Origin: an uncultured Clostridia bacterium
Lineage (GTDB): Bacteria; Bacillota; SHA-98; UBA4971
Assembly (NCBI GenBank): GCA_900019985.1
Contig: FIZM01000003.1
Span: forward strand, 1 to 46,232
Reading direction: 5' to 3'
Length of the DNA stretch: 46,232 nucleotides
The notes below the pieces were generated by a model. The model was not told where the DNA came from. It made no database searches and saw only the letters and a list, made by a program, of their open reading frames with translations. This document shows positions 39,295 through 44,120 of this stretch, piece by piece (within the stretch, counting starts at the first letter, position 1; every line of letters begins with the position of its first letter). Both the position numbers and the translations under genes were made by a program.

Positions 39295-39382
39295 TAGGAT
39301 TGAAGGAAACTGCATGACCTATCCAGAAGACTAAAAACAAGACGCCTAAACATCAGCGGCGATCCCTGAAGGGGAGATGGTC

Positions 39383-40810
39383 ATGGATGTCGGCAATTTT
39401 CATTTAATCCTTGATTCCATAGATGAAGGCATCCAAGTCGTTGACAGGAACGGCGTAACAGTCTTTTACAACAGAGTAGCTGCAAACCTCGACAACCTTA
39501 AGCCTGAAGAAGTACTGGGTAAGCATGTGCTTGAGGTATTTCCTTCACTGTGCCGAGAAACCAGCACTTTGCTCCAAGTGCTCAAGACCGGGCAACCTGT
39601 GTTAAACAGGGAACAGACTTTCATGAATTACAAAGGAGATACCATTACAACAATAAACTCAACTCTCCCTATTGTGGTCGACAACAAAGTCATCGGTGCA
39701 GTGGAAGTTTCCCGCGATATCACGCTGATACAGGAGATGGCCCGGCGTATTGTGGATCTTCAAACAGAGTTGTTTGCGAAAAAAGAAGGCAGGCGTGATA
39801 TCGGGTCTGACCGGGCTCACTATACGTTTAAAGACATAGTCGGTGAAAGCGAGTCTATACTCGAGTTAAAACGAAAAGCCGCAAGAGCTGCAGGCAGCGC
39901 GTCTGCTGTTCTTGTCCAGGGCGAAACAGGGACAGGGAAGGAGCTGTTCGTACAGGCGATCCATAACGCAGGTACCAGAAGGACAGGGCCGTTTATTGCG
40001 CAAAACTGCGCAGCATTGCCCGAAGGCCTGCTTGAAGGCATACTCTTTGGAACAACAAAAGGCGGGTTTACAGGCGCTTGCGACCGCCCCGGCCTGTTTG
40101 AGCTGGCAGATTCAGGTACGATTTTTCTGGATGAAATCGACTCTATGCCTTCAGGATTACAAGGAAAACTCCTACGCGTCCTTTCAGAGAAGCGCTTGAG
40201 GCGCGTAGGCGACACAAAAGAGCGCGTTGTTAATGTCAGGGTTATAGCTGCAATGACACGCCCGCCTGAGCACGCAGTTGCTGCCGGCTTATTGAGAGAA
40301 GACCTTTATTACAGGCTTAACGTCATTTGCCTCAGGATCCCGCCCCTCAGTGAAAGGCGTGAAGACATACCCCTCTTGATAGACCACTTTATCAGCAAAT
40401 TCAACAGGCAATTGATGATGAACGTGAAAGGCGTGTCAGACGAGGTCCGTAAATTATTTCTATCTTATGACTGGCCCGGAAATGTCCGCGAGCTTGAACA
40501 TGCTATCGAAGGGGCCATGCATATGCTGGACGGAGATATGATTCTCCTTGAACACCTGCCTGAGCACATAAGAAAGCCAAGACTTCCGGAGAAGGATTCA
40601 CATCTGCCTTTTGATGACATCATTCAGGATGAAGAATTAGGCAGTGATTTCCGGGAGACTGTCAGGGATTTGGAAAACACTTTGATCCGCCGGGCTTATG
40701 CCAAAGCAGGAGGCAACGTATCTAAAACCGCACGCATCCTGGGAATACCTCGCCAAACCCTTCAGTACCGCCTCAGAAGACTCGGCATACAGGAAGAAAA
40801 CCCACGGTAA
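39383..40810 (+). CDS. Sigma-54-dependent transcriptional activator (PAS-AAA-Fis)
   Basis: A ~475-residue enhancer-binding protein. Residues ~1-115 form a PAS sensor domain (LDSIDEGIQVVDRNGVTVFYN). The central AAA+ domain (~150-375) has Walker A GETGTGKE, the sigma-54 contact loop as GGFTGA (usual GAFTGA), Walker B GTIFLDEID and the FIS-type helix-turn-helix at ~436-473 (NVSKTARILGIPRQTLQYRLRR). ATG 39383 is preferred over 39377 because AAGGGGAG is then spaced 6 bases. A sigma-54-type promoter follows directly, so the next operon is its likely target; the PAS ligand is unknown. Confidence 0.9.
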   Translation: MDVGNFHLILDSIDEGIQVVDRNGVTVFYNRVAANLDNLKPEEVLGKHVLEVFPSLCRETSTLLQVLKTGQPVLNREQTFMNYKGDTITTINSTLPIVVDNKVIGAVEVSRDITLIQEMARRIVDLQTELFAKKEGRRDIGSDRAHYTFKDIVGESESILELKRKAARAAGSASAVLVQGETGTGKELFVQAIHNAGTRRTGPFIAQNCAALPEGLLEGILFGTTKGGFTGACDRPGLFELADSGTIFLDEIDSMPSGLQGKLLRVLSEKRLRRVGDTKERVVNVRVIAAMTRPPEHAVAAGLLREDLYYRLNVICLRIPPLSERREDIPLLIDHFISKFNRQLMMNVKGVSDEVRKLFLSYDWPGNVRELEHAIEGAMHMLDGDMILLEHLPEHIRKPRLPEKDSHLPFDDIIQDEELGSDFRETVRDLENTLIRRAYAKAGGNVSKTARILGIPRQTLQYRLRRLGIQEENPR

Positions 40811-40834
40811 ATCAATTACATCTCTGGGAAATCA

Positions 40835-40850
40835 GGGCACCCGGTTTGCG
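40835..40850 (+). promoter_or_regulatory. Sigma-54 (-24/-12) promoter of the AAA-VWA operon
   Basis: GGGCAC (40835-40840), CCGGT, TTGCG (40846-40850) matches the sigma-54 consensus TGGCAC-N5-TTGCW with the invariant GG (40836-40837) and GC (40848-40849) exactly 10 bases apart. It lies 25 bases after the activator gene and ~80 bases before the AAA gene; transcription would begin near 40861. Confidence 0.7.
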
Positions 40851-40929
40851 GTATGCGCCTATTAGGGCAAGGTCATAATAATCCATGGCTGCCCACTTAT
40901 GCCGCAATTACATTATGGAGGTGCCCGTA

Positions 40930-42351
40930 TTGAAAACACTTCGAGACCTCGTGGTACATGAAGGTAATCAATCTTTGGTTGATGCCTTGGAAATGTCCAT
41001 TCTATCCCTCATGGCAGGCACACCCGTTCATGTTCATGTGGAAGGCCTTCGTGGTACAGGAAAGACAACAGTTATCCGGGCTATGAAAAGCATTCTCCCT
41101 TCTATTGAACGAGTTAGAGGATGTCTGTATAACTGCGAACCTGCCAACCCTCACTGTCCGGCCCACCGCAACATGGACCCTGAGGACCTATCTTCATTAG
41201 GCACAGAGTCTATTCCCATTCCCTTTCTTGAGATATCTCATGCCGCAAAACTTGGGACGGTTGTCGGCAGCATAGACCTGGCAAGAGTGGTGGATCCCAA
41301 TCATCCTGAAGTAGCTCTTCTTCCCGGAGTAATACCCAGGGCATATAGGGGCATCATTTTCGTTGACGAAATAAACAGGCTGGCAGATACATCTCCTGAG
41401 CTCACCGACGTTCTATTGGATGTCATGGGAACAAAACCGGGGCGCCTCCAGATAGAAGAGACAGGCTTGCCTGCATTTATACTGCCTGTCATCTGCTGTG
41501 TATGGGCTGCCAGCAATCCTGATGAAGAACCCGGAGCACTGGAAGATATAAGAAGACAGCTGTCAGACAGGTTTGATTTTGTCGTGAATATGGGTAGGCC
41601 GCAGAATCACGATGCGGTAAAAAGGATTTTGTCCGGCAACATATGGGGAGAAGAAGTGCTGTCGCATAAGTATGGAGCCTCTGTCCTGGAGAGGGCGGAT
41701 ACATTACGGCAGATTTCGCTGTCGGACGATTTATCATCACTCTTAGCCGAGCTGTATATCGGTTTTGGAATTGAAAGCCTGCGAGCTGTAGAAGCCATAT
41801 CTCTCGGTGCGCGGGCAAGGGCTGCAATGAATTCCAGAACCAAAGTATTGCTTGATGATATTAGGAGTGTGCTAGGGATTACCCTTCGCCATCGTGTCGA
41901 CGGGGCAACACTTATAAATATAGGCAAGTTTCTCGATGAGTATGAATCAAAACAAGGTAAACACAGACGAGAAGAAAGAGAACAAGGCAGTCCAAGAGAT
42001 GGGGCAGGTGAAGAAAGATCTGAAGAAGGTGCCGGGAAGGATCCGGTAAGGACGGATGACGCTTGCATAAAACCTGAGTCTCTATGGGACAGGCTGATAA
42101 AAAGCATGGGGCTGACCCGTCATGACATGTCTAAAAGGCACTATGGTACTGAAGGTGCCGGTTTGTCTCAGGGCACAGCCGCATCCCGCACATCGGCAGG
42201 GCATGGGCGGCGGTATGCAGCCGGAGGCGGGACAAGCATTGCTGACCCCAGAGACGTAGACATACACGCACCTCCGGCAAAAGCCAGATCCCTGTTTCAA
42301 CTGTCAGGTAGCGAGATCCTCTTTACCGAGGAGGATCTCAAGATAAGATGA
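40930..42351 (+). CDS. Magnesium chelatase subunit I-like AAA ATPase
   Basis: A ~473-residue AAA ATPase of the ChlI/BchI branch. Walker A GLRGTGKTT (K45), a cysteine loop RGCLYNCEPANPHC (~63-76) as in ChlI proteins, GTVVGSIDLARV, Walker B IIFVDEINRL (~143-152) and sensor AASNPDEEPG. The C-terminal ~120 residues are low-complexity and charged (SKQGKHRREEREQG), likely a flexible link to the VWA partner. TTG 40930 has GGAGGTG 6 bases upstream; an earlier in-frame ATG (40885) lacks a site. No porphyrin genes are nearby, so true magnesium insertion is unlikely. Confidence 0.82.
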   Translation: MKTLRDLVVHEGNQSLVDALEMSILSLMAGTPVHVHVEGLRGTGKTTVIRAMKSILPSIERVRGCLYNCEPANPHCPAHRNMDPEDLSSLGTESIPIPFLEISHAAKLGTVVGSIDLARVVDPNHPEVALLPGVIPRAYRGIIFVDEINRLADTSPELTDVLLDVMGTKPGRLQIEETGLPAFILPVICCVWAASNPDEEPGALEDIRRQLSDRFDFVVNMGRPQNHDAVKRILSGNIWGEEVLSHKYGASVLERADTLRQISLSDDLSSLLAELYIGFGIESLRAVEAISLGARARAAMNSRTKVLLDDIRSVLGITLRHRVDGATLINIGKFLDEYESKQGKHRREEREQGSPRDGAGEERSEEGAGKDPVRTDDACIKPESLWDRLIKSMGLTRHDMSKRHYGTEGAGLSQGTAASRTSAGHGRRYAAGGGTSIADPRDVDIHAPPAKARSLFQLSGSEILFTEEDLKIR

Positions 42352-44120
42352 ATTCCTACCGCCACTTGACCTCCATAAGGTACGACCACCACCGTCTTGT
42401 CAAAACGATGCTGACTGAATTCCGTATGGGGCGAGGCCTCCGAATTGGTGAAACCACTGTAATCAGCAGGAGAGTCCACGTTATCTATCCTGAAGAACCC
42501 GGCGAAGTGAAGATTATCATCAACCAGGACGCAGGAGCTGCCTTCTACGCGAGGATAAAGAAGAACGAGATCCTTCACATTGACATTTTCCATGAAATTG
42601 CCGAGGTCGACCACAGGAGAATCGCAGAAGCCATTAAACACGCTGTATACGAGTATTTCCGAGATCCTGTGTTTCACCATGGAAGGGGATTCTTGTTTCC
42701 TTCAGCCGGGGAACTCCTGGACCTTATTGATATCCAAACAGGGAGCGGGGGAGGCAGAGTCAGCGGCTCTCTGAATTACGGAAGGAAGTATTCGCTCCGG
42801 AAAGCCCACTTTAACCACGTGCACCTGGCTGCTATGTTTCCGGATAACTGTCTCGCAGTCGTATTCTATATTGTAAGCGCCATAGAAGAAGAGCTGGCCT
42901 GCCAAGGGATTGAAATCCGCAAGGTAGAGAGAATATCTCACCTGGAAGGAAAGGGGAAAGCTGATCTTTCGCCATACTCGAGCATCTTCGACTCACACCT
43001 GAACGAGACAGGAAAGCAGCCGGCTGACAGGGATTGGAAGTCTCTCGACGAGGAGTCCCGCATAGATACAGTGGCATCAATGGCAGAGGAGTTCGGCGGA
43101 AGGGTTAACATGGCGAAACTCCTTGAAAGCCTTACATGTACAGGTAATATTCCTCCGGACATCCGCTCTGATGTCGGTGATCTTGACGAGGTTATAGAAA
43201 GGCTTACCTCCTGGCAGCTGATAGGACGCGAGATGGGCAAGTTTTCTCTGACTCCTAAAGGTGAGGAAGTAAAGAGCATCCTAACTTCCTACGCTTCAGA
43301 GATCGAAGCAGCAATAAGGCGGATTATCAGGAAGATGCCGATTATCAGGAAGTTTCCCCAACATGAAGAAGGCAAGTTCCGTAAGAAAGCCAGGGGAGAT
43401 ACTCCGAGAATTGCCAAGACCTTAAGACCGCTTAGGGAAGGCGAGTGGTGTGACAGTATCGCAGTCCCTGAAACAGTCGTTGCTTCGCTGGTAAGACGTA
43501 AAATCGAAAAAGATGCTCCCTCTAGGCTCTTGCGGGAGGACATCCGGGTATACAGACGCCGCCCGGTGAGCCCGCCGGAAATCTGCCTCTTAATCGATGC
43601 CAGTGCGAGTATGGTAGGGCGACGGATTCGGGCTGCAAAATACCTGATACGTCACTTGACCATGGCATGCCGTGTAAAAATCAGTGTACTGACGTTTCAA
43701 GAGCGCGACGTCAAGATCCATATTGCGTCTACGAGGTCAAAGAAGGCAATTGAAGAAGGGGTGAAAAGGATTCAACCCCAGGGCCTGACCCCGCTTGCTG
43801 CAGGCATCGCCGATACCCTGGAGTTCATAAAAGCAAAAAGGATAAAAGATGTCCTTCTTATCTTGATAACAGACGGCATTCCCACTATGAACCGTTGGAC
43901 TGCTGATCCTGCGAGAGACGCTCTTACAGCTGCAAAAGCCATCGCCGACAGGAAAATAGCTTTTATGTGTGTAGGCCTCCAACCCAACAAGGACTTTCTT
44001 TCTCGCCTTGTCGATGTGGCCCATGGTAAACTGTATATAGTGGACGAATTCGACAAGGATATTCTGGTGAACCTTGTGCGAGCCGGAAGACGAGAGAGCA
44101 CCAAAGGCAGCAATCGCTGA
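42348..44120 (+). CDS. VWA-domain partner of the chelatase-like AAA ATPase
   Basis: A 590-residue protein. The first ~330 residues are not recognised; they include beta-rich text (VHVIYPEEPGEVKIIINQ) and a helical region with a winged-helix-like ending (FSLTPKGEEVKSIL). The C-terminal ~180 residues form a VWA domain with an intact MIDAS: DASAS (near residue 417), a threonine in GLTPLAAGI, and ITDGIPT. Overlaps the AAA gene as ATGA. ChlI-ChlD and MoxR-VWA pairs act together to insert metals or remodel proteins; the target here is unknown. Confidence 0.8.
   Translation: MNSYRHLTSIRYDHHRLVKTMLTEFRMGRGLRIGETTVISRRVHVIYPEEPGEVKIIINQDAGAAFYARIKKNEILHIDIFHEIAEVDHRRIAEAIKHAVYEYFRDPVFHHGRGFLFPSAGELLDLIDIQTGSGGGRVSGSLNYGRKYSLRKAHFNHVHLAAMFPDNCLAVVFYIVSAIEEELACQGIEIRKVERISHLEGKGKADLSPYSSIFDSHLNETGKQPADRDWKSLDEESRIDTVASMAEEFGGRVNMAKLLESLTCTGNIPPDIRSDVGDLDEVIERLTSWQLIGREMGKFSLTPKGEEVKSILTSYASEIEAAIRRIIRKMPIIRKFPQHEEGKFRKKARGDTPRIAKTLRPLREGEWCDSIAVPETVVASLVRRKIEKDAPSRLLREDIRVYRRRPVSPPEICLLIDASASMVGRRIRAAKYLIRHLTMACRVKISVLTFQERDVKIHIASTRSKKAIEEGVKRIQPQGLTPLAAGIADTLEFIKAKRIKDVLLILITDGIPTMNRWTADPARDALTAAKAIADRKIAFMCVGLQPNKDFLSRLVDVAHGKLYIVDEFDKDILVNLVRAGRRESTKGSNR

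Follow-up and report, generated by a model that had tools for sequence, protein, structure and literature searches.

In respiration, CO2 fixation, and denitrification, AAA-VWA pairs serve to insert metals or to remodel enzymes. The window analysed here, the whole stretch of 46,232 nucleotides on contig C3 of a 1.83 Mb Bacillota assembly, contains such a pair, and its gene order is ddl, act, aaa, vwa, a lapA-domain gene, and recJ (Table 1). The locus raises two questions, namely what switches the pair on and what it works upon. The initial annotation read a sigma-54 promoter between the PAS-AAA-Fis regulator gene act and the ATPase gene aaa, so that the pair would be made on a signal seen by the PAS domain.

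Table 1. Positions of the genes and of the candidate control elements in the window.
Feature	Position	Strand	Description
Sigma-H-like sequence upstream of act	39302..39333 (span approximate)	+	GAAGGAAA; 12-13 bases, nnnGAA; tentative
act	39383..40810	+	PAS, sigma-54 AAA, AAA lid, Fis HTH; PrdR/RocR-like kind; beside aaa only in host family (13/13 loci)
GGGCACC	40835..40841	+	Proposed 5' hairpin arm, read earlier as -24 box; complementary to aaa RBS
GCGGTAT	40848..40854	+	Proposed second helix; pairs with ATGCCGC 40899-40905
-35 element GTATG	40851..40855	+	Exact (as GHATR) in 16/16 host-class loci
-10 element CATAATA	40874..40880	+	N18 spacing from -35; predicted transcript start near 40886-40888
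ATGCCGC	40899..40905	+	3' arm of proposed second helix; pairs with GCGGTAT 40848-40854
aaa RBS GGAGGTGCCC	40917..40926	+	Contains GGTGCCC 40920-40926, the proposed 3' arm, complementary to 40835-40841
aaa	40930..42351	+	ChlI/cobaltochelatase-type AAA+ ATPase, 473 aa; Walker A GLRGTGKTT, Walker B FVDEIN, CxxxC-x6-CxxH insert
vwa	42348..44120	+	N-terminal domain, winged helix ~235-325, VWA domain ~400-570 with intact MIDAS

The host class was sampled with 17 genomes, all of which contain vwa relatives, and the promoter comparison covers 16 aaa loci from three families. The host family provides 13 loci from two genera, with genus 1 being that of the window. The order act-aaa-vwa-lapA-recJ is kept in all 13. 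The loci of two sister families have aaa-vwa-lapA-recJ without act, and where the sequence extends far enough, protein-export genes lie upstream of aaa. Among 57 phylum-wide loci, act is limited to the host family, and the recurrent neighbours are recJ, relA, and secF. The AAA and VWA genes adjoin directly in 46 of 52 loci, and the commonest junction is the same four-base overlap that the initial annotation had correctly noted in the window. Comparison with PHROGs and PADLOC gave no phage or defence family match. In family f13, L102 (G026:C39:9996-15321) and its relatives have one aaa followed by three tandem vwa copies, an amplification in the copy number of the VWA partner. Single in-frame stop codons lie within, or at one end of, vwa matches that are otherwise full-length in G020, G036, G042, G043, G117, and G302; assembly error, recoding, decay, or an overrun of the match could account for them.

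The ATPase is ChlI-like, as first annotated. Its best NCBIfam match is TIGR02442 (E 4e-42), and solved ChlI structures match it at E 8e-33. Against AAA_3, the MoxR sequence family, it scores 18 bits, under the cut-off of 27, with the ChlI type being the best. The last 200 residues of the VWA protein are ChlD/BchD-like, and the MIDAS described earlier (DASAS, T481, and D509) is intact and invariant. Residues 235-325 are winged-helix-like, and for residues 1-225 neither Pfam nor NCBIfam has a matching family. This N-terminal domain comprises H44, D61, H77, D79, H82, H157, H159, and E180, which are 96-100% conserved phylum-wide; the conservation of these His, Asp, and Glu residues suggests a metal or catalytic site. 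A structure model of the VWA protein was obtained from 52 sequences with a pLDDT of 84.8, replacing a 12-sequence model with a pLDDT of 56. Its best Foldseek/PDB matches are NorQ-NorD complexes (9qh6, E 9.5e-10), and NorD has the fold nearest to that of the modelled VWA domain.

Among sequence families, both proteins match TIGR02442/ChlI/ChlD best, which would cast the pair as the ATPase motor (I/D or S/T subunits) of a tetrapyrrole chelatase for cobalt or magnesium. However, all scores are far under the curated cut-offs (144 of 779 bits and 77 of 779; none of TIGR02442, TIGR02030, and TIGR02031 is passed). The initial annotation had seen no tetrapyrrole gene near the pair, and the large subunit CobN/BchH is in fact missing from 16 of the 17 host-class genomes, that of the window included. 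The sole genome with CobN, G004, has a generic VWA gene beside it (C3:50386-54870), separate from its aaa-vwa pair at C4:78079. The lack of CobN makes a chelatase motor highly improbable, and this reading is largely refuted in the host class.

The regulator upstream of the pair has all the domains ascribed to it initially. Its best NCBIfam match is PrdR, under the cut-off of that model. The activator loop is GGFTGA in the window, and in most orthologues it is GGFTGA or GSFTGA, with the Walker motifs intact. The sigma-54 factor itself is available since rpoN is present at C10:20136 in the genome of the window and in 17/17 genomes of the host class, so that the absence of the factor cannot be held against the cassette first proposed. 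In that cassette, act would sense a signal through its PAS domain and drive aaa-vwa from GGGCAC-N5-TTGC (40835-40849), either by itself or together with the forespore-type promoter described below. The letters are as reported, GGGCACCCGGTTTGC with GG-N10-GC spacing. By itself, the spacing is present in 42% of 120-base stretches drawn at random from the window, and the longer match KGGCAC-N6-TGC in 0.2% of them, which is hence not trivial. The adjoining act in every host-family locus and a conserved block upstream of the promoter, found only where act is present, also favour such a cassette.

The conservation of the site is incomplete. GG-N10-GC is intact in nine of the 13 orthologous loci, including six of seven in the genus of the window, and is broken in the other four, a finding that the initial annotation had itself set beforehand as refuting. 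Both invariant dinucleotides are hit: L029 has lost both, L030 and L031 the -24 G, and L032 the -12 G, with changes of G to A at -24, and of GC to AC or TC at -12. The act product of G008 (L029:6072-7466) has altered GAFTGA, Walker A, and Walker B motifs (NGFKNG for GAFTGA, GEIGTGKK for GETGTGKE, and FLNEIDS for FLDEIDS) and an intact HTH. With these motifs lost, it cannot be a normal sigma-54 activator, and it is apparently a former one that has turned into, or is decaying to, a plain DNA-binding PAS protein. G008 nevertheless keeps aaa-vwa and the forespore-type promoter, and so do the two sister families that lack act. The GGGCAC letters are, moreover, accounted for by complementarity to the aaa ribosome-binding site. 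Sigma-54 control of aaa-vwa is thus most likely a misreading, and the cassette, with or without a second promoter, is unlikely.

The regulator itself may serve other targets. A sigma-H-like motif (RNAGGAWW, 12-13 bases, nnnGAA) precedes act at 10/13 loci (window, L024-L030, L033, L034, L039) and is followed in most of those by a conserved CGCCCAAAnATC block. The gene may belong to early sporulation or the transition state.

Wang et al. 2006 reportedly give the B. subtilis sigma-G consensus as GHATR-N17/18-CATNHTA. Upstream of aaa, GHATR-N18-CATNHTA is exact in 16/16 host-class loci from three families, including the act-less ones. The invariant letters of the act-aaa gap include GTATG and CATAATA, 18 bases apart. 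One act-less family has GAATG-N18-CATACTA, and the other has GTATG-N18-CATAATA with an unrelated spacer; in these two families the likeness is confined to the -35, the -10, and their 18-base spacing, the spacer itself being different. The gap contains no sigma-70 promoter and no terminator. In a C. species, sigma-F promoters are distinguished by a G upstream of the -10, and those of sigma-G by an A downstream of it (PMC3789822). Both letters are present at the aaa promoter, which may therefore be used by either factor or by both. In genus 1 (window 40861-40879, L024, L026, and L027), the spacer and the -10 together make up an inverted repeat, ATTATGGC-AAG-GCCATAAT, of which the window has an imperfect copy; the repeat is a possible operator over the promoter.

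The use of the sigma-G consensus is supported by the SASP promoters of the host class, which consist of GCATA, ACATA, or GTATG, 17 bases, and then nAnACTA. As a positive control, the relaxed motif is found at 13 of 16 SASP genes of the class versus 32 of 6,400 random 95-base segments (0.5%). The regions upstream of SpoVT lack a clear match to the strict motif and are not a clean positive control. The chance of the promoter motif is ~1e-3 per 250 bases, with a random expectation of 0.6 per 46 kb on both strands, and the whole-genome count of the sigma-G pattern, 11 matches versus 7 in the reversed control, is not clearly above background. The motif is therefore not rare enough in one genome, and the argument rests on its place and conservation. 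Beyond the host class, the strict pattern occurs upstream of none of 39 distant aaa genes. Matches to a profile built from SASP promoters are enriched ahead of the aaa genes of distant Bacillota (combined p 4e-6), with neighbouring control genes flat; this is an enrichment only, with 8/40 at p<0.05. Judged from these promoter sequences and from the distribution of the pair described below, aaa-vwa is probably under forespore control.

The aaa start is TTG at 40930, 8 bases behind GGAGG (40917-40921), an arrangement conserved in the aligned orthologues. The act-aaa gap is thus ~120 bases and not 75. ATG at 40885 was considered as a start and rejected, as it has no ribosome-binding site and sits at the promoter. 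GGTGCCC, which overlaps the aaa ribosome-binding site, has GGGCACC in the supposed -24 box as its exact reverse complement. The GGGCAC block differs among species (GGGCACCC, GGGCACTT, GGGACACC, CGGGACATCC, and GGGGCACCTT), and the pairing ability stays. In 11/13 loci, the anti-Shine-Dalgarno pairing lies at or below 3.4% of shuffles, being stronger than at least 96% of them. This pairing would account for the "-24 box" more economically than sigma-54 does. The 5' arm is upstream of the expected transcript start, so the hairpin is possible only in mRNA that reads through from act. In B. subtilis sigG, a large hairpin is proposed to block translation of read-through mRNA (PMC5942855), and by analogy the GGGCACC arm probably shuts translation of the act read-through mRNA.

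In genus 1, the hairpin has 23 pairs, with 95.7% of cells paired versus 33-48% when slid, and its energies give z values against shuffles of -2.3 (window), -3.2, and -3.1. One compensatory change, G-C to A-U in L029, is reached by 77/500 shuffles and is not significant. In genus 2, the ribosome-binding site of aaa is predicted to be paired in the short transcript too, and Shine-Dalgarno accessibility does not separate read-through from forespore transcripts cleanly. RNAalifold on all 13 loci gives a different fold with weak covariation, and the hairpin is therefore claimed mainly for genus 1. No Rfam family was found in the act-aaa gap. The better-than-shuffled folding of the long inverted repeat and the high share of paired cells in genus 1 could also mean that the block is conserved mainly as an RNA or operator element, namely a large hairpin to which act or some other factor binds, with the promoter match as a by-product. 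Yet in genus 2 the same second helix does not form, and GTATG and CATAATA are still kept, and the two other families share just the -35, the -10, and the spacing between them, which makes this element a very unlikely explanation of the conserved block.

The forespore reading is in line with the distribution of the pair. Genes for sigG, SASP, and SpoVT are found in the genome of the window and throughout the host class. In a survey of 399 Bacillota genomes, with vwa called at E<1e-25, vwa is present in 114 of 340 genomes with sigG versus 3 of 59 without it (Fisher 1.6e-6), and by family in 34/121 versus 0/20 (p 0.0025), with phylogeny not fully corrected for in either comparison. Of the three vwa cases without sigG, one is a fragment of 125 residues, one is a gene divided between two contigs, and one comes from an assembly that is 61% complete. 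In family f20, the members without sigG have vwa broken or missing. About two thirds of the sampled spore formers are without the aaa-vwa pair, which is therefore not universally needed. A search of the literature on AAA, VWA, MoxR, chelatase, and sporulation found no link between an AAA-VWA pair and the endospore.

During sporulation, sigma-G, and probably sigma-F too, would transcribe aaa-vwa from GTATG-N18-CATAATA. Transcripts reading through from act would carry the anti-Shine-Dalgarno arm GGGCACC, folding onto the ribosome-binding site of aaa; with that site blocked, the forespore transcript would be the main source of the AAA and VWA proteins. The AAA ring may dock via the MIDAS-bearing VWA domain, as in NorQ-NorD, and ATP would be used to remodel a forespore client, most likely through insertion or removal of a metal or cofactor. 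For such a task, judged from homology and conserved residues only, the chances are about even. The His/Asp/Glu-rich N-terminal domain of the VWA protein is the likely working end. The idea in the initial annotation of an undescribed AAA-VWA remodelling or metal-insertion machine is supported. The whole is tentatively, at slightly under even odds, read as a previously undescribed sporulation module of Bacillota, in which a forespore-made AAA-VWA machine, with a new His/Asp/Glu metal or cofactor domain and a winged helix in its VWA protein, loads or strips the metal or cofactor of a client during spore maturation, with translation confined to the forespore transcript by an anti-Shine-Dalgarno hairpin.

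About one in three of the spore-forming Bacillota genomes sampled have the pair, its two genes almost always side by side, and a forespore-type promoter precedes it in one whole class. For an orphan machine, this indicates when and where to look, and for which phenotype, in spore maturation, resistance, and germination. The locus also illustrates how an anti-Shine-Dalgarno arm next to the gene of an activator can give rise to a string resembling a sigma-54 site.

In having AAA+ and VWA genes side by side, with the Walker motifs and the MIDAS intact, the locus resembles MoxR/VWA-type machines such as NorQD and RavA-ViaA. In NorQ-NorD, the VWA partner of the AAA ring helps to insert iron (FeB) into NO reductase (PMC9976466, PMC13036017). 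The window shares with it the gene pair and the C-terminal, MIDAS-bearing VWA domain. In contrast, its AAA protein is of the ChlI and not the NorQ/MoxR sequence type, the N-terminal domain of its VWA protein matches nothing, its promoter is of the forespore type, and no NO reductase gene is nearby. RavA-ViaA is likewise an AAA-VWA pair, acting as a chaperone, and one of the 52 vwa members has a weak ViaA match; there is, however, no family-level similarity, and regulation and domain layout differ. The AAA sequence family and the ChlD/BchD-type VWA are in line with ChlI-ChlD and the CobN-associated TIGR02442 subunits, from which the pair differs by its split into two genes, another N-terminal domain on the VWA protein, and the lack of a CobN/BchH partner. 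The promoter, GHATR with nAnA[AC]TA, is similar to those of sigma-F/sigma-G regulon genes such as SASP and sigG, and read-through mRNA would have its aaa ribosome-binding site closed off in the way suggested for B. subtilis sigG (PMC5942855). Unlike the products of these regulon genes, that of the window is an AAA-VWA machine.
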